From contig CALGYB010000083.1 in NCBI GenBank assembly GCA_937935075.1, positions 1-33,866 on the forward strand: 33,866 nucleotides of DNA, in the 5' to 3' direction. The position numbers and the translations under genes are program-made. Of the stretch, positions 19,317-26,425 are shown one piece after another (within the stretch, counting starts at the first letter, position 1; each line of letters starts with the position of its first letter). The notes under the pieces are model-generated. The model saw nothing but the letters and a program-made list of their open reading frames with translations, did not search any database and had not been told where the DNA came from. The DNA is from an uncultured Roseiflexus sp. GTDB taxonomy: Bacteria > Chloroflexota > Chloroflexia > Chloroflexales > Roseiflexaceae.

Positions 19317-20011
19317 CGCCACGTTCACCCTATCTGGACTGTTCCTTAGGGGTGGATACTGCGGTGTGTGTCTGAGTTCTATCGTCCATTGCGAGCATCA
19401 GAATGTGCGTAAGGACAAGATGACGCCTTGCCCCAACATCCCCTTCTCCCGCAGTCGGTACAGTACCTTCACGTCTGATAATTACATTGCAGGCAGTCAG
19501 ACCGGATGTTCGAGCGTCCAGTTCGCAAGGACCAACGAACGCGCACCGGCCAGATGTTGCCCGATACTTGCTCGTGTTGACCGTTGTGCGGCTGACGTCG
19601 GCTGAGCGTGTCGAAGCCAACGTCAGCCGCTCCACGTCCTTGATGTTCCAGGTTGTGGCTGATCGCGCTATGAGCGAGGGGTTTCGCCCGCAGCGCCCCG
19701 GTGGCATTGTACAAATGACTGCACATTAGTACGGCATCGCCCGGTCTCGCCAGCGCAGGCGGGCTTGGCTCGCCGGAGCCTGCGACTTGAGTCGCCAGGC
19801 GAACCGGCGCAGAGCGGCATCGGTCGTCAACCTACCCGCAGCCCTGCACGCGGGGGATTGGTGACAACCATTGTCCATCTGGCGTCCGCAATCGCCCCGC
19901 AGCCCTGCGCGTGGGGTTTTGGTGATCGGCAACGCTCCGCTTGAGCGCAACCCTCGCGTCGCCTGCCCCTTGCCGCGCGCCTGGTTTTGCGCGCGTTCGT
20001 ATCTTCCTGCT
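19317..20011. other. Gene-free region with several dispersed repeats
   Basis: Nothing here looks coding. It contains the left copy of a degenerate repeat (about 19490-19735, see below) and the inverted copy of the 65-bp repeat. It also has a block at about 19750-19795 inverted relative to 17490-17515, and two direct copies of 'ccgcagccctgcrcg(c/t)gggg..ttggtga' at about 19848-19866 and 19901-19924. Confidence 0.6.
19490..19735. repeat. Degenerate dispersed repeat, left copy
   Basis: It starts cagtcagaccggatgttcg, continues with ccagttcgcaagg and cgcgcaccggc, and ends with gggtttcgcccgcagcgccccgg, attgtacaa and gcacatt. The same blocks in the same order and orientation recur at 22535-22865. 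The middle of this copy carries the 65-bp REP repeat (19568-19637, palindrome arms 19589-19603 and 19615-19629). Confidence 0.65.
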
Positions 20012-20332
20012 TCAGGCGCTTACAAGCGCCTTCACTGCCGTCCGATCGTACTTCTGTTTGCGGCGAATGTCGCGCAAGGCGCGGCGGTTGCGGTAAACGG
20101 TGATGAGTACCGGCGTCTTACCGGCGTCGTTGATGACCAGCGTGGCGCCTTCCAGATGATGATATTTTTGAAAGGTCGCCCGATCGGTTGGAATATCGCG
20201 CCGCCCGAGGAAGATGTGCAGCACGCCGCCGCTGCGGATGCGACGCCCATGTCGCATGATGAATGCCACCTCGTCGTCCTTCAGGTTGCGTTGTGCCTGT
20301 CGCAGGCGTGCGTGGTTGCTGATGGCGATCAT
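20012..20332 (-). CDS. DUF4258-like small protein
   Basis: 106 residues with an agaggaggc ribosome site before the ATG at 20332. The pattern is SNHARLRQAQRNLKDDEVAF, then a glycine-turn (RHGRRIRSGGVLHIFL), an acidic loop, and LVINDAGKTPVLITVYRN. This 'HA..R..qR....d.v..i...G' start and the final strand with a 'vitvy' core are those of the DUF4258 group, small proteins distantly resembling RelE/BrnT-like toxin folds. No antitoxin-like gene is paired with it on this strand. An 8-base perfect hairpin (20014-20031) covers its stop codon. Toxin activity is speculation. Confidence 0.7.
   Translation of the reverse strand: MIAISNHARLRQAQRNLKDDEVAFIMRHGRRIRSGGVLHIFLGRRDIPTDRATFQKYHHLEGATLVINDAGKTPVLITVYRNRRALRDIRRKQKYDRTAVKALVSA
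20014..20031 (-). terminator. Short hairpin at the end of the DUF4258-like gene
   Basis: aggcgctt pairs perfectly with aagcgcct across a 2-base loop and overlaps the stop codon. There is no T-tract, so it may stabilise or end the mRNA rather than act as a strict intrinsic terminator. Confidence 0.35.
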
Positions 20333-20458
20333 GCGAGCCTCCTCTATTCAGGTGCGACGCCCGCTCCTGTCTCTGGAGAGCGTCTATTTGCATTGAGCAT
20401 AGCCTGTTTCTATGAACAAGATAAGACAGTCGCGCGCTGCTTTTTTCATCTCTGTCGG

Positions 20459-20488
20459 TTGACAACCGCCAAAGCGATTGGGTATCAT
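20459..20488 (+). promoter_or_regulatory. Strong candidate promoter at the edge of the repeat array
   Basis: A perfect TTGACA (20459-20464) is followed after 18 bases by TATCAT (20483-20488). Transcription would begin about 20496, the first base of the repeat array, and would read through the array to the sigma-like gene at 21116. The DUF4258-like gene is divergent. Confidence 0.6.
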
Positions 20489-20496
20489 CCATGAAT

Positions 20497-21029
20497 GAGT
20501 CCACTGCACAAAGGCGTAACCACCAGGGGCACGAAGCGCACGGCGGGTGATAAAGATGAAGCGCATTGCCTTCGTGTCCCTTAGTGACCTTCGTGGTTCG
20601 CTTTGTGCGGTGAAGTCATGGAAGGCTTCACCACCGAGGACACGAAGCACACGAAGGGGAATAAAGATGAAGCGCACTTCCTTCATGTCCCTTGGTGACC
20701 TTCGTGGTTCGCTTTTTGCCGTGAAGTAACCACCAAGGACACGAAGCGCACGAAGGGGAATAAAGATAAAGCGCACTTCCTTCGTGTCCCTTGGTGACCT
20801 TCGTGGTTCGCTTTGTGCCGTGAAGTAACCACCACGGACACGAAGCGCACGAAGGGGAATAAAGACGAAGCGCACCTCCTTCGTGTCCCTTGGTGACCTT
20901 CGTGGTTCCGCTTTGTGCCGTGAAGTAACCACCAGGGACACGAAGCGCACGGCGGGTGATAAAGATGAAGCGCATTGCCTTCGTGTCCCTTGGTGACCTT
21001 CGTGGTTACGGCTTTTTGCAGTGAAGTCA
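20497..21029. repeat. Array of five palindromic MITE-like units
   Basis: Ends are GAGTCCACTGC and GCAGTGAAGTC, as in the single copies. Inside are five head-to-tail units of about 95-111 bases. They begin near 20515, 20628, 20726, 20824 and 20925, each with 'accacc.(a/g)ggacacgaagcgcacg' and 'ccttcgtgtcccttggtgaccttcgtggtt' halves. Every unit can fold into a long hairpin. The minus strand is open for 317 codons through the array, but that reading is repeat sequence. ATCCATG occurs on both sides (3 bases from the left end, directly at the right). Confidence 0.88.
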
Positions 21030-21115
21030 TCCATGCACATCTGTTCAGAGAACCGAGAACCGGGATGCGTGATGGGTGCTGAGGCTCTGGCGCTCTGGTG
21101 AAGGTGGTTGATGAC

Positions 21116-21763
21116 ATGGCACAGGAACGTTCGTGGTATGAAGTGGTGCAGGAGTGTCAGGAGCGTGTGGTGCGCATCCGCGCAGTGCTCACGACGGGCG
21201 GCGAGTGGACGCCAGCGCTTCAGAAAGACCTCGACAACGTGATCCTTGCAGCGCGCAACTGGATCTACGGTCGGGCGCGCAAATCGGGACTCGATGAGGA
21301 TGCCTGCGCCGATGTGCTGCTCGCGTTCATCGAACAACTCCAGCGCGATCTGCGCAGTCCCGGATTCCGTAGTATGGAGCGCAAATTCGGCTCGTACATC
21401 TCGACGACGGTTAACCGCATCCTCTACGAACGAAAAAACAACCAGCAGAACATCTTATCTTCTCTTGAGAGTCTGGATGCGCCGATGGGTGACGATGGTC
21501 TGCCGCTCCACGAGGTCATCGAAGACCCGACGCTGGCGCGTCTTGCCGAAGAGCATGACGAAGAACAGGTTCGCAAACGATTGTACGAAGCGATCGAGGC
21601 GCTTCCTGAAATCGAACGTGTGGTTGTTACGCATCGCCTGAGCGAAGTACGCGGGATTGATATTGCACAGATGCTTAGCATGTCGCCCGCAAATGTTTCA
21701 CGTATCTACAAGCGCGCAATCAATCGGTTGCGTCAGGCATTGGCTGCCGGGGAATCATCATGA
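21116..21763 (+). CDS. Sigma-70-like transcription factor
   Basis: 215 residues from an ATG 9 bases after aaggtgg (an in-frame GTG at 21098 is less likely). Residues 38-110 resemble sigma region 2 (VILAARNWIYGRARKSGL, FIEQLQRDLRSPGFRSMERK, GSYISTTVNRILYERKN). Residues 116-140 have a region-3.2-like acidic linker (SLDAPMGDDGLPLHEVIEDP). Residues 152-212 form region 4 with a clear helix-turn-helix (IDIAQMLSMSPANVSRIYKR). It would direct RNA polymerase to special promoters. It is weakly like ECF factors and probably a lineage-specific sigma. It overlaps the following XRE gene by 4 bases (ATGA), so that protein is its likely regulator. Confidence 0.8.
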   Translation: MAQERSWYEVVQECQERVVRIRAVLTTGGEWTPALQKDLDNVILAARNWIYGRARKSGLDEDACADVLLAFIEQLQRDLRSPGFRSMERKFGSYISTTVNRILYERKNNQQNILSSLESLDAPMGDDGLPLHEVIEDPTLARLAEEHDEEQVRKRLYEAIEALPEIERVVVTHRLSEVRGIDIAQMLSMSPANVSRIYKRAINRLRQALAAGESS

Positions 21764-22380
21764 AAGACCGTTCGTATTTTATCGAGGCGGCGTTGCGTTA
21801 CGAGGAACTGCTCGAATCGGGGCAGATCATCAGCCTCGATGCATTTGTGGCGCAGGAACCGCCAGAGGTGCGCGAGGAACTGCGCGCGTTTCTCGAGTTT
21901 AACCTGACGCTCGGCGAATTGGACGAGCCGGCGGTGCTATCGCCGACGGAAGAGGCGGCGGCCGACCGTGTGATGGCGCTGGCGGGGGCGGCGTGGGAAC
22001 GCGAGCTGAGCGGCGAGCCGCTCCAGAATCTGACCGACCTGCGCAAGGCGCGTCATATGACAGTCGGGCGACTGGCGCGCCACTTGAAATTGCCGGTCGA
22101 TCTGCTGGCGCGCCTGGAGCGCGGCAAAGTGCGCGTTGCGACGATCCCCGAACGGTTGATTGAGCGCCTTGCCGATGCGCTGCAAACCGCTACGTCCGTT
22201 ATTCAAGCGGCATTGCTCGCGCCGCCGCCTGCCAGCACAGGAGCGCGTCTCAACGCCGAAGATGGAATCGTCGAGCCGGAAGAGACAGTGGTCAGCTTCG
22301 CACGGGCGTTCGTAGACAGCGCTCCGACCGACGAAGAGCGGGCAGCCTGGGCTGATGTGCTGCCAGAGGACCGACGATAA
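21760..22380 (+). CDS. XRE-type HTH protein coupled to the sigma-like gene
   Basis: 206 residues. The N-terminal 50 residues (FIEAALRYEELLESGQIISLDAF...PPEVREELRAFLEFN) are acidic and helical, like N-termini of sigma-associated proteins. Residues 90-147 form an XRE/Cro-type HTH (LTDLRKARHMTVGRLARHLK, LARLERGKVRVATIPERLIE). An acidic C-terminal tail ends FARAFVDSAPTDEERAAWAD. The start overlaps the sigma stop. It could be an anti-sigma-like partner, a repressor of the locus, or both. XRE proteins next to ImmA/IrrE proteases are typical cleavage targets, and one such protease domain is encoded 500 bases downstream. Confidence 0.75.
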   Translation: MKDRSYFIEAALRYEELLESGQIISLDAFVAQEPPEVREELRAFLEFNLTLGELDEPAVLSPTEEAAADRVMALAGAAWERELSGEPLQNLTDLRKARHMTVGRLARHLKLPVDLLARLERGKVRVATIPERLIERLADALQTATSVIQAALLAPPPASTGARLNAEDGIVEPEETVVSFARAFVDSAPTDEERAAWADVLPEDRR

Positions 22381-22882
22381 AACAGGTGAATGGTCATACC
22401 TGCATTGCCGCCCAACACGGATGCACTGTATAGAACGGCGCGGGGGAGTATGCGCGCGGTGAGTGATCGCGCCGGTTCTGAATTGGCGCAGGCGATGAAC
22501 CGGGTAAGACCTGTGCCGATGTGATACTGACTTGCGGTCAGTCAGACAAGATGTTCGCGCGCCCGGTTCGCAAGGCGCACCAGTCAACGCGCACCGGCAG
22601 TCCGTGTCGTGGACGCATGACTGCGCAGTGGCATCAGCAGCCCCGGCGGGGCTTCCACTTGCGGTGAGCACCGTCGAACCGCGTGCGGTGAGCATGTCGA
22701 ACCGCGTCCTCAGCGCGGGCTTTCGCCCGCAGCGCTGGTTATCTGAAGGGCGGAATGGCGCAGCAAAGCAAACTTTCATGTCCTTAGCACGGGCTTTCGC
22801 CCGCAGCGCCCCGGCGTCCCGCTGTGCGCCCCGGCAGTATTGTACGATTGACCGCGCATTGGTATGAGGAGCGACGGCGACC
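22381..22882. repeat. 500-bp spacer with right copy of the degenerate repeat
   Basis: From about 22535 the blocks gtcagtcagacaagatgttcg, cccggttcgcaagg and cgcgcaccggc match 19494-19550. From about 22780 the blocks gggctttcgcccgcagcgccccgg, attgtacga and gcgcatt match 19678-19735. Between them gcgggctttcgcccgcagcg occurs once more (about 22718-22737). A minus-strand open frame through the spacer is not protein-like. It separates the XRE gene from the protease-helicase gene, so they may have separate promoters. Confidence 0.6.
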
Positions 22883-25800
22883 ATGAGTGTGCGTTCAAGG
22901 CATATCCGCGCATTGGTGCGCGATATTCGTCGCGCTTACCTGGAACGCACCGGCGGTGCGTTCGACCATCCCCTGCCACTCGACGATCTGGCGGAGACGC
23001 TCTGGGAGTTGACGGTCGTTCCGACGGCGACGCTCGCCGAAGGCATTCAGGGGAAGGTCGAGCCGGAACTTCAGGTCATTCGGGTGCGGCGCGATCTTCC
23101 GCCGACCCGCCTGCGCTTCGTGGTGGCGCACGAAATTGGTCACGTGGCGCTCGAAGGACTGACCGCCGGTTCCTTCCGTGATACTGCCGATACCCTCGAT
23201 GAGCGCGCAGCCGGCGAGGGTGTCGATGAGTCGGCGGTGCGCACCTACAATACGCGCGAACGCCGCGAGCGAGAGGCAAACCTGTTCGCGCTCGAACTGC
23301 TCGTGCCGGCGGATGAACTCTGGCAGGCGGTGCAACAACCAGAATGGAGCATTGAAACCCTGGCGGCGCACTTCGCTGTGTCGTCCGATGCTCTGCGCGC
23401 GCAACTGGTGAATGTCTGCCTCCTCCAACCGCCAGCGCTATTGGAAGCGCCGGTTGAGGCGCGCGCCGCCTCATTCACCCCCGATCCAGAACAGCAGGCG
23501 GCGGTCGATGCGCCGCTGCCGCTGCTGCTCGCCGCTGGACCCGGCGCCGGCAAAACGCGCAGCATTGTGGCGAAGTATGTGTCATTGGCGCGTCAGGGGG
23601 TCGATCCGTCGTCCATTCTGGCGCTGACGTTCTCGAACCGGGCAGCGGAAGAGATGCGCGAGCGGATTGTCACGGCGCTTCGCCAGGAAGCGCCGCACCT
23701 CGCCGGTCGTGTCGAGATCAGCACCTTTCACTCGTGGGGCTTGAATGTGCTGCGGATCTACGGCACACGTCTGGGTCTGCCGGTCGATGTGCGCCTGCTC
23801 GACACTGCCGATCTCTTCATCCTGCTCTCGAAGCGCCTGAATGACCTGCGCCTGGAGCATTTCAAAGACCTGCGCGAGCCAACTCGCCATGTGCTGGCGA
23901 TCATTCAGGCGATCAGTCGTATCAAGGATGAACTGTGGTCGCCAGAGGAGTTTGCTCGCCTGGCAGACGTGGAGGCGCGTCGCCTGATCGAACAGGCGGA
24001 ACGGGATCACCCTGGCGCTACCCGCAGGGCGACCGAGGCGCGTGAACGTGCTGCGCGACAGGCTGCGGCGTTGCGGGAACTGGCGCAGGTCTACCCGCGG
24101 TACGAAGCCATACTCCGCGATGCAGGCGCGCTCGACTATGGCGACCTGATTGTGCTGCCGGTGCGGGCGCTGCGCGATTATCCGGCAATCGCCGCCGATC
24201 TCCGCTGTCGCCATCGCTATCTGCTGGTCGATGAGTTTCAGGACATCAACTATGCTTCGGGTGAGTTGATCCGGCTGCTCGACGGCGGGCGCGGGCAGGT
24301 GTGGGCAGTCGGCGACGCCTGGCAGAGCATCTACCGTTTTCGTGGCGCATCCGCAGCGAACCTCGACGAATTCACGCAGCATTATCCGAACGCGCGTATC
24401 TGCTATCTGACGCGCAACTATCGTTCGCTGCAATCGATCCTTGACGCCAGCGCTGCGGTGATGGCGAGCGATCTGCGCGCTGCCGAACGACCTCCCCTTG
24501 TGGCGCAGCGCAACGGCGGCGATGTCCACACGGTCGTTGAGTGGGCCGCGCCGCGCAGCCAGGATGAATATGCCGCCATTGCCTACGATATTCTGTGCCG
24601 GGTGCGCGCGCGCACCCGCCGGTTGTTGCCGGGCTGCGCGGCGCGGCGCCGGGGGGCGCGCTCTGGAAGAATGCGGCGGAGCGCGCGCCGTCTTCCACTT
24701 TCAATCCGTCGGTGGCGCTTTCGCGACCATGCCATCCTCTGTCGTACTCACGAGCAGGCAGGCGCGCTCGCTGCCGTGCTCGAAGCGTATGGCATTCCCG
24801 TTGATTACATCAGCGATGTGTTCGACACGCCGGAAGTCAAGGATGCCCTGGCAGTCTGCGCGCAGGTCGGCGCAACCAACAGCGTCGGATTGTTGCGCGC
24901 ACTGACCATGCCCGAACACCGGCTCGATCCCGCCGATCTCAACCGACTGGTCGATCTGGCGCGACGAAGCCGGCAGGCATTGCCGCGGGCTGCGCGCGAC
25001 CCGCAGATCGTTGCGCAGCTCAGCGAAGCAGGGCAGCGAACGCTCGCACAACTCCAGGCAATGGTCGAAGCGCTGGAGGGCGAGAGTGATGCCTGGCAGG
25101 TGTTGACCGCATATCTGTTCCGGTATAGCCGGGCAATGCGCGAGCGTTTGACCCGCGCCGCGCAGGGGGATGTCAGGGCGCAACGTGAACTCGCGGCGCT
25201 TGGTCAACTCCTTGCGAGTGCAAGTGCGTTCGTGCGCCTGGCAGCGCCAGACGAATGCGATATGTCCCATTTTATTGATTACATTCGCGCACTGCGCGCT
25301 GCCGGTGTGCGCCCGCGATCATCGAGCGGCACGCTGGCGGATGCCGTGCAGGTGATGACCATTCACGCCGCGAAAGGGCTGGAATTCCCGATCGTGTACG
25401 TACCGGGATTGCAGGAAGGACGCTTCCCGGCGCGTGGCAACCGGCGAGGCATCCAGTTGCCCGACAGTCTCATCCGCGGTCCAATCGAGAGCGAAGAGCA
25501 GGAGGAACGTTACCTGCTCTACGTGGCGATGACCCGCGCGCGCAACCGGTTGGTGCTCAGCCGGGCGCTGATGCGCGACGACGGCGCAAGACCGGTAGAG
25601 CGCTCGTCGCTGCTGCCCGGAGATGGTCAAGGGAATGGCGTTCCATGGCGCGTTCGCGTGCTGGAGGGTGCAGCGAACTGCCCGCCCCCGACGCCTGACA
25701 TGCGCCTGTACGACACGCCGCTGCCGCGTATGCCGCTGCCGGCGTCGAGCATTGATCTTGATGGCTGCAAACGGCGCTTTCTCTACCAGTACGTCTATCA

Positions 25801-26425
25801 GTTGTATGACGACCTCTCGCCCTTCTTGCGCATGCACCAGGCAATCCGCGAATGCGTCAAGACTCTGACCGAACAGGCGCGTGATGGCGTTCTTCCGGCT
25901 GATGAAGCCGCACTGCGCACCCTGGTGTTTGGCCAGTTGCAACGCTACGAACTCGACACCGTCTTGTATGCCGATGACTACGCTGCCGAGACGCTGCGGC
26001 ATGTGCAGACCGTATGGGACGACCTGCGCAACGGGCGGATCACGCCGGAACAGGTGGACCGGCGGGTGATCGTGCGGCGACCTGCCGGGACTATCGAGGT
26101 GCGGATTGATCGTGAGGAGACGCAGAACGGGATAACGCGCTGGGTGTGGGTGCGTCCGGGTATGCCGCGCAGTGACGATCACCTGGCGGAACGGGTGATG
26201 CTGTACGCTCTGGCGCGTCAGGAGACGGCTCATCCCCCTGACGAGATCGTCATCGCCTACACCGGAACCGGCGACATGCGACCCGCCATGCCGAGTGAGC
26301 GCGTGCTGGCGAACCATACCGAAAAGATCGACCGTCTGCTGGAAGCCATGCGCGCGCGACGTTGGGAACCGTCGTTCGGTCCGCAGTGCGATTCATGCCC
26401 GTTCAACCTGATCTGCCCGGTGTAG
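22883..26425 (+). CDS. ImmA/IrrE protease - UvrD/PcrA helicase - AddB-like Fe-S domain fusion
   Basis: 1180 residues; the ATG follows gaggagcgacggcgacc. Residues 1-190 are an M78 (ImmA/IrrE) metallopeptidase: HEIGH at 83-87, third-ligand region EREANLFALELLVP (129-142), then a small helical tail with LAAHFAVSSDAL. Residues 205-900 form a superfamily-1A helicase: TPDPEQQAAVDA, Walker A GPGAGKT (219-225), LTFSNRAAEEM, STFHSWG, VDEFQD (449-454), VGDAWQSIYRFRGA, YLTRNYRS, TIHAAKGLEFPIVYVPG and YVAMTRARNRL. Residues 955-1180 resemble the AddB/RecB-type PD-(D/E)XK domain: C962, C1169, C1172 and C1178 fit the iron-sulfur pattern. However, the place of the usual D...D.K strand reads IEVRID...WVWVRPG, so the nuclease is probably inactive. 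Residues about 573-613 are anomalously Arg-rich. It probably couples regulated proteolysis to DNA unwinding; roles in damage response or defence are inferred. Confidence 0.88.
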   Translation: MSVRSRHIRALVRDIRRAYLERTGGAFDHPLPLDDLAETLWELTVVPTATLAEGIQGKVEPELQVIRVRRDLPPTRLRFVVAHEIGHVALEGLTAGSFRDTADTLDERAAGEGVDESAVRTYNTRERREREANLFALELLVPADELWQAVQQPEWSIETLAAHFAVSSDALRAQLVNVCLLQPPALLEAPVEARAASFTPDPEQQAAVDAPLPLLLAAGPGAGKTRSIVAKYVSLARQGVDPSSILALTFSNRAAEEMRERIVTALRQEAPHLAGRVEISTFHSWGLNVLRIYGTRLGLPVDVRLLDTADLFILLSKRLNDLRLEHFKDLREPTRHVLAIIQAISRIKDELWSPEEFARLADVEARRLIEQAERDHPGATRRATEARERAARQAAALRELAQVYPRYEAILRDAGALDYGDLIVLPVRALRDYPAIAADLRCRHRYLLVDEFQDINYASGELIRLLDGGRGQVWAVGDAWQSIYRFRGASAANLDEFTQHYPNARICYLTRNYRSLQSILDASAAVMASDLRAAERPPLVAQRNGGDVHTVVEWAAPRSQDEYAAIAYDILCRVRARTRRLLPGCAARRRGARSGRMRRSARRLPLSIRRWRFRDHAILCRTHEQAGALAAVLEAYGIPVDYISDVFDTPEVKDALAVCAQVGATNSVGLLRALTMPEHRLDPADLNRLVDLARRSRQALPRAARDPQIVAQLSEAGQRTLAQLQAMVEALEGESDAWQVLTAYLFRYSRAMRERLTRAAQGDVRAQRELAALGQLLASASAFVRLAAPDECDMSHFIDYIRALRAAGVRPRSSSGTLADAVQVMTIHAAKGLEFPIVYVPGLQEGRFPARGNRRGIQLPDSLIRGPIESEEQEERYLLYVAMTRARNRLVLSRALMRDDGARPVERSSLLPGDGQGNGVPWRVRVLEGAANCPPPTPDMRLYDTPLPRMPLPASSIDLDGCKRRFLYQYVYQLYDDLSPFLRMHQAIRECVKTLTEQARDGVLPADEAALRTLVFGQLQRYELDTVLYADDYAAETLRHVQTVWDDLRNGRITPEQVDRRVIVRRPAGTIEVRIDREETQNGITRWVWVRPGMPRSDDHLAERVMLYALARQETAHPPDEIVIAYTGTGDMRPAMPSERVLANHTEKIDRLLEAMRARRWEPSFGPQCDSCPFNLICPV

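Follow-up and report, generated by a model that had tools for sequence, protein, structure and literature searches.

A helicase-protease fusion and its operon

The window analysed here, a 33,866-nucleotide stretch from an uncultured Roseiflexus sp. of the Chloroflexota (assembly GCA_937935075.1, contig CALGYB010000083.1, positions 1 to 33,866, forward strand), contains a three-gene module whose last gene encodes a single 1180-residue protein made of an M78 (ImmA/IrrE) protease, a UvrD-type helicase and an iron-sulphur (Fe-S) pseudo-nuclease. A sequence-only reading had placed M78, UvrD helicase and Fe-S AddB-like domains in this one open reading frame, and both Pfam and alignment confirm it. 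The module comprises the following features.

21098..21763, + strand: sigma-70/extracytoplasmic function (ECF)-type sigma factor (TIGR02937 5e-14, over cut-off; Sigma70_r4_2); conserved partner
21760..22380, + strand: XRE-like helix-turn-helix (HTH) protein, 206 aa (HTH_31 2.1e-7); conserved partner
22883..26425, + strand: M78 protease - UvrD-type helicase - Fe-S pseudo-nuclease fusion protein, 1180 aa (open reading frame, Pfam, alignment, structure model)
23069..23407, + strand: M78 (ImmA/IrrE) protease domain, residues 63-175 (Pfam; kept in 59 aligned fusions)
23129-23143, + strand: HEIGH motif of the M78 domain, residues 83-87
23267-23269, + strand: third-ligand Glu129 of the M78 domain
23486..25564, + strand: UvrD/PcrA-type superfamily 1A (SF1A) helicase core, residues 202-894 (Pfam; structure match to UvrD/Rep/PcrA)
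25763..26419, + strand: RecB/AddB-like PD-(D/E)XK domain with Fe-S cysteines C962, C1169, C1172 and C1178 (Pfam, alignments)

All four Pfam matches exceed their cut-offs: Peptidase_M78 over residues 63-175 (E 1.8e-15, 57.3 bits against a cut-off of 22), UvrD-helicase over 202-502 (E 1.8e-57), UvrD_C over 612-894 (E 2.2e-33) and PDDEXK_1 over 961-1179 (E 2e-7). The motifs fall at HEIGH 83-87, EREAN 129-133, GPGAGKT 219, VDEFQD 449 and CDSCPFNLIC 1169, and in a 17-protein alignment H83, E84, H87, E129, the Walker A residues, DEFQDIN and C962/C1169/C1172/C1178 are invariant. The AddB-like C-terminus of the earlier reading stands as to its four cysteines and its RecB/AddB fold family, with the addition that the nuclease site is dead, the catalytic D-x-K and Q-xxx-Y residues being absent from the window protein in alignments.

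The fusion is not a frame artefact, because the same frame is open in three other Roseiflexus genomes (83-86% identical). The window lies in a Roseiflexus-like genome, relatives in named Roseiflexus records being 76-86% identical along the entire protein, and the start at 22883 is backed by alignment (MSVR..IRA in relatives). A compensated frameshift at about 24600-24740 was ruled out, as relatives carry the same basic, low-conservation linker in frame and the structure model is disordered there. The TIGR01073 equivalog scores 302 bits against a cut-off of 911, so that by this profile the protein is not a full-length UvrD/PcrA/Rep; despite that score, its motor motifs are intact in the alignment. 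An AlphaFold model (predicted local distance difference test, pLDDT, 82.7; predicted template-modelling score, pTM, 0.80) gives confident domains, with disorder in the M78-helicase linker (184-197) and at 577-608. Residues 195-1135 were the part compared with the PDB, where the helicase matches UvrD/Rep/PcrA at Z 33-36 and AddA/AdnB at Z 28-31; for the M78 part, a sequence comparison gave a weak match to IrrE (E 0.0035-0.03).

The fusion gene comes third, behind the sigma and XRE-like genes, which overlap each other by 4 bp in the window. The same arrangement is seen in Roseiflexus, Chloroploca, Viridilinea and another three genomes of their taxonomic order, in several other Chloroflexota families, in one record each from the Actinomycetota, Armatimonadota and Abditibacteriota, and in every one of the 18 plasmid loci read (the sigma of L253 being below profile detection), and across these loci the genes overlap or nearly abut. 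Co-occurrence with an XRE or sigma gene, which the sequence-only reading had named as the support to look for, is thus consistent, the fusion following both. Whereas the end of the XRE gene runs into the start of the fusion gene in many relatives, the window has a 502-bp stretch between the two (22381-22882), which carries short repeats that recur near 19487-19731, about 3 kb off.

The XRE-like protein is predicted to be a repressor or anti-sigma factor and the substrate of the protease. In the window its HTH fold resembles the HTH domains of CapH and DdrO (Foldseek, weak E-values), and among the plasmid members sampled no Pfam HTH is recognisable in the gene at this position, which is still in place. 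A sigma gene followed by an overlapping partner gene is the usual sigma/anti-sigma order. Because of this order, and because the HTH fades in the sampled plasmid versions while the gene stays, I favour an anti-sigma role as likelier than that of a DNA repressor only.

Conservation and origin of the fusion

I aligned 59 fusions, 41 from Chloroflexota and other chromosomes or metagenome-assembled genomes and 18 from plasmids. They span Chloroflexota, Actinomycetota, Armatimonadota, Abditibacteriota, Cyanobacteria and Proteobacteria, and many are plasmid-borne. HExxH, the third-ligand Glu and the four Fe-S cysteines are kept in every one of the 59, as are the helicase motifs, so that the HEIGH site, whose conservation the sequence-only reading had put up for checking, has its HExxH counterpart in all relatives. 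A degenerate M78 domain in the Ktedonobacteria was ruled out, since the alignment shows HELGH together with the ligand Glu. The acidic residue of the nuclease D/E-x-K site is gone from all 59 fusions and the lysine from nearly all, whereas all 14 unfused Chloroflexota relatives have an intact (V/I)xDYK(S/T)G-type site and the same cysteines. The Q-xxx-Y residues are likewise missing from all fusions and present in the unfused relatives. On this alignment the C-terminal domain of the fusion is a dead nuclease; the Fe-S cluster itself is predicted from the cysteines. Unfused single-chain UvrD plus RecB-like Fe-S proteins of about 930-1070 aa, found in other Chloroflexota (L131-L144), resemble intact helicase-nucleases.

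A helicase-core tree, from which the M78 and nuclease parts were excluded and which included the 59 fusions and one viral-contig copy, places all 60 fusions in one clade (Shimodaira-Hasegawa-like approximate likelihood ratio test, SH-aLRT, 100). The search for this architecture across genomes thus returned a single old architecture in one clade. The simplest history of these sequences would be a single origin, a helicase-nuclease having acquired the protease and given up its nuclease in one and the same event; as that event counts only once, the contrast of 59 with 14 does not amount to 73 independent points.

Phage genomes yielded UvrD-core matches only, none of which spanned 80% of the fusion protein. 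A contig filed as viral (L163, IMGVR_UViG_3300022818_000183) carries a full M78-helicase fusion, an XRE-like gene and a partial sigma match. The genome of the window encodes a second M78 domain protein (G000:C146:45421-45699, L262; 33 bits).

Neighbouring immune operons and promoter-like motifs

The fusion is found in 93 PLSDB records at E <1e-60, of which 80 cover at least 80% of it, in hosts that include Acinetobacter, Rhizobium, Agrobacterium, Klebsiella, Leptolyngbya and others, and a complete copy of the module lies on one E. coli chromosome (5426 genomes searched). A ubiquitin-like (Ubl) operon adjoins the module in 17 of the 18 plasmid loci read. Most of these operons consist of Multi_ubiq (PF14452), an E1 with DUF6791 and ThiF, and DUF6527; five loci have a Bil-type set, one confirmed by PADLOC (BilD 6.4e-174, BilB 4.1e-63) and the rest assigned by similarity. 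The arrangement by which CapH/CapP is recognised, an HTH protein and an M78 protease beside an immune operon, is likewise present in 17 of the 18; in the window itself the only adjacent candidate target is a DUF4258 gene. The plasmid copies lie in defence islands with AbiEii, SbcCD and restriction-modification (R-M) genes. No GajA (OLD/TOPRIM) appears among the annotated neighbours at the plasmid loci, where no scan aimed at GajA was made. Finally, L079, a chloroflexotal locus from the window's order, has an operon of Ubl, E2-like and E1/JAB genes directly behind the fusion; GGTAAC...CCAGTA(G)ATACAGA precedes both its sigma gene and its Ubl operon and may be the sigma promoter proper to this locus.

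In nearly every plasmid locus with a Ubl operon TT(A/T)CCGG-N16/17-CGATT lies after the fusion stop and ahead of the first Ubl gene, and TTACCGG-N16-CGATT also precedes sigma in four Bil-type loci. This motif resembles a -35/-10 pair more than a palindrome. The loose motif occurs 71 times in 786 kb, both strands counted, against 24 expected under a first-order Markov model, and it is the fixed position, more than the count, that matters. Matches to TACCGG-N16-CGATT within the 3' part of plasmid sigma genes were dropped as promoters, as they coincide with a conserved protein segment.

The window carries a different pair, upstream of the module, with these features around it.

20012..20332, - strand: DUF4258-like small protein, 106 aa, divergent from the operon (Pfam 24.4 bits, cut-off 25)
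20420..20448, - strand: TGAAA-N16-GTCTTATC, promoter-like site toward the divergent DUF4258 gene (motif scan)
20459..20488, + strand: TTGACA-N18-TATCAT, possible housekeeping promoter of the sigma operon (seen in sequence)

TGAAA-N16-GTCTTATC occurs in 10 of 10 genomes with a window-type module and in 4 of 70 other genomes from the order (Fisher 6e-10, kinship uncorrected). It stands before the divergent DUF4258 gene beside sigma (in the window the site runs from 20448 to 20420 and the gene starts at 20332), directly behind the fusion in Chloroploca and Viridilinea, and within a restriction/DUF262 region of Chloroploca mongolica. Furthermore, it precedes the type I-B cas operon (Cas8b1, Cas7, Cas5, Cas3) in all four Roseiflexus genomes that have this operon; operon and motif are present in the window's own genome, on contig C16. 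The extra site is missing from both Roseiflexus genomes that have no cas operon, and none of 19 type I-B cas-bearing genomes without a window-type module has the motif at the operon (Fisher 5e-4, kinship again uncorrected). The motif fits a promoter because its spacers vary between genomes while both boxes stay fixed. The motifs suggest a link between the sigma factor and target genes, this sigma being the one that would recognise them.

Before one Roseiflexus cas operon two identical motif copies lie 74 bp apart (G003:C1:2306974 and 2307048, L292). A Cas3-like gene on the minus strand lies near the module in two genomes of the order (L077, about 35-2812, confirmed by Pfam; L078, 1-2547). Beside the module, relatives of the 106-aa DUF4258-like protein occur in Roseiflexus, Chloroploca and Viridilinea and at a number of distant loci, including L032, L034, L077, L078, L115, L130 and L148, and score just below the Pfam DUF4258 cut-off. 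Elements resembling TTGACA-N18-TATCAT also lie upstream in two other Roseiflexus. Between this promoter region and the sigma gene the window has five tandem units of about 99 bp (20519-21026), which are missing from the upstream regions of other Roseiflexus. GATAAG-N18-TTTCA was ruled out as the sigma-operon promoter, for it points away from sigma in Roseiflexus and lies downstream of the fusion in Chloroploca.

A probable DNA-sensing controller and its relation to known systems

The architecture, its single origin, the trade of nuclease for protease, the operon, its neighbours and the placement of the motifs can be read from the sequences, and beside them I set the steps that I infer by analogy: sensing of DNA, cleavage, release of the sigma factor and its recognition of the motifs. 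A DNA trigger and cleavage are proposed because of two precedents: single-stranded DNA (ssDNA) activates PprI/IrrE to cleave DdrO (PMC10904395), and CapP is stated to be ssDNA-activated and to cleave CapH upstream of immune operons (PMC13373217). The window would hold a three-gene DNA-sensing switch and one target gene. To judge from the fold and from the conservation of its motor motifs, the helicase, together with the Fe-S pseudo-nuclease body, would load on single-stranded or broken DNA, and loading would activate or position the attached M78 protease. The protease would then cut the co-encoded XRE-like protein, which presumably keeps the sigma factor or its promoters silent, and the freed sigma would transcribe genes behind a lineage-specific -35/-10 pair. 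In Roseiflexus the output would be the divergent DUF4258 gene and the type I-B CRISPR-Cas operon, through TGAAA-N16-GTCTTATC; on proteobacterial and cyanobacterial plasmids it would be the Ubl immune operons, through TTACCGG-N16-CGATT.

At this point I consider it probable that the module is a DNA-sensing controller of immune genes, with the helicase as sensor, the sigma factor as output, and the trigger and cleavage as presumed steps between them. Its conserved partners and DNA sites suggest that what it would respond to is damaged or foreign DNA. The sequence-only reading had allowed for either a damage sensor or a defence effector; the neighbours and the shared promoter motifs favour the controller and speak against the effector.

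Several points weigh against a controller. The neighbourhood of the fusion in the window has no Ubl genes. G401 has the module and a type I-B cas operon, yet no exact motif at that operon, and in one genome pair (G000:C59 and G005:C186) no target is evident for a conserved copy of the motif. These two sites (G000:C59:823-851, L320; G005:C186:4304-4332, L321) lie near nadC-nadA-nadB and point away from it. The XRE protein or another regulator could be what binds the motif. A nested clade of 20 fusions (Ktedonobacteria and family f17) keeps the protease site but has for the most part lost the adjacent sigma and XRE genes, and may therefore have other or distant substrates. Finally, cleavage, activation by DNA and sigma specificity are themselves inferred.

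Of the alternatives, a CapH-like circuit survives best, although I regard it as unlikely. Here the fused protease would cleave an XRE protein that acts simply as a DNA-binding repressor, with sigma as just one of the genes it represses. The CapH/CapP precedent and the likeness of the window's HTH to those of CapH and DdrO speak for it, but the sampled plasmid versions keep the gene without a recognisable Pfam HTH, the overlapping sigma-then-partner arrangement is the one usual for a sigma and its anti-sigma, and the motif resembles a -35/-10 pair more than a palindrome. That the fusion is instead an immune effector, its helicase acting on invading DNA and its protease processing itself or attacking phage proteins, seems improbable. 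Its occurrence in defence islands would suit such a role, as would its best PADLOC matches, which are GajB helicases; these matches, however, reflect a generic UvrD core, no member keeps a live nuclease site, the fusion shares its operon with regulators and not with variable effectors, and the same module precedes effectors as different as Bil, Multi_ubiq, cas I-B and DUF4258. An SOS-type DNA repair protein with a structural or chaperone-like leftover M78 part is very improbable: the helicase body does resemble UvrD/AddA/AdnB, and sigma and XRE are absent beside the fusion in some lineages, but all 59 fusions, across phyla and deep divergence, retain HExxH and the third ligand, and the genome of the window already encodes LexA (L263), so that this would be an extra system.

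Returning to the controller, its most specific form is possible, if a little short of probable: a helicase-nuclease rebuilt as a helicase-protease that no longer cuts DNA but reads it and cuts an anti-sigma factor, giving a mobile switch that may run any immune arsenal bearing its promoter, be it CRISPR-Cas, a ubiquitin-like system or another. The timing of costly or toxic immune-system expression in bacteria is an open question, and the literature searched describes few DNA-damage-linked controllers (CapW, CapH/CapP, CapK/CapS). If true, the present reading would extend this set by a class that senses through a helicase and acts through a dedicated sigma factor. It predicts promoter sequences, target operons (CRISPR-Cas included) and an identified substrate, and laboratory strains could serve to test it, since complete Ubl-linked copies exist on plasmids and on one E. 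coli chromosome. The fusion would also be a clean evolutionary case of a nuclease-to-protease swap of chemistry on one motor. No description of the M78-helicase architecture was found in the literature searched, mostly open-access; an earlier one may exist elsewhere, for example among Bub papers.

Among known systems, CapW/BrxR and CapK + CapS are DNA-damage-responsive controllers of the same kinds of operon (PMC13373217), but their described mechanisms involve no protease, helicase or sigma factor. The Bil and Multi_ubiq/E1/DUF6527 (Bub-like) operons, which directly adjoin the plasmid module, are its predicted output and not part of the switch. AddA/AdnB/RecB-type Fe-S helicase-nucleases share with the fusion a UvrD-type motor followed by a RecB-like domain with four cysteines, whereas the fusion has lost the nuclease site and gained an N-terminal protease. 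CapH + CapP, known from upstream of CBASS (cyclic oligonucleotide-based antiphage signalling system), Bub and other immune operons, likewise pairs an M78 protease with an HTH protein beside immune operons, ubiquitin-like ones included, and a DNA trigger is predicted here too. The protease of that pair is small and stands alone, whereas here it is helicase-fused in all members, the operon opens with a sigma gene, and distant genes such as the cas operon are among the predicted targets. IrrE/PprI - DdrO of Deinococcus also combines an M78 protease with an XRE protein and offers a precedent for ssDNA-linked activation, but PprI has a C-terminal GAF-like ssDNA domain where the fusion has a helicase and pseudo-nuclease, and the sigma factor is an addition here. 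Thus, by analogy, the module would work like CapH/CapP or IrrE/DdrO, yet it is a member of neither, because its protease does not stand alone, a helicase replaces the GAF-like domain and a sigma factor leads the operon.

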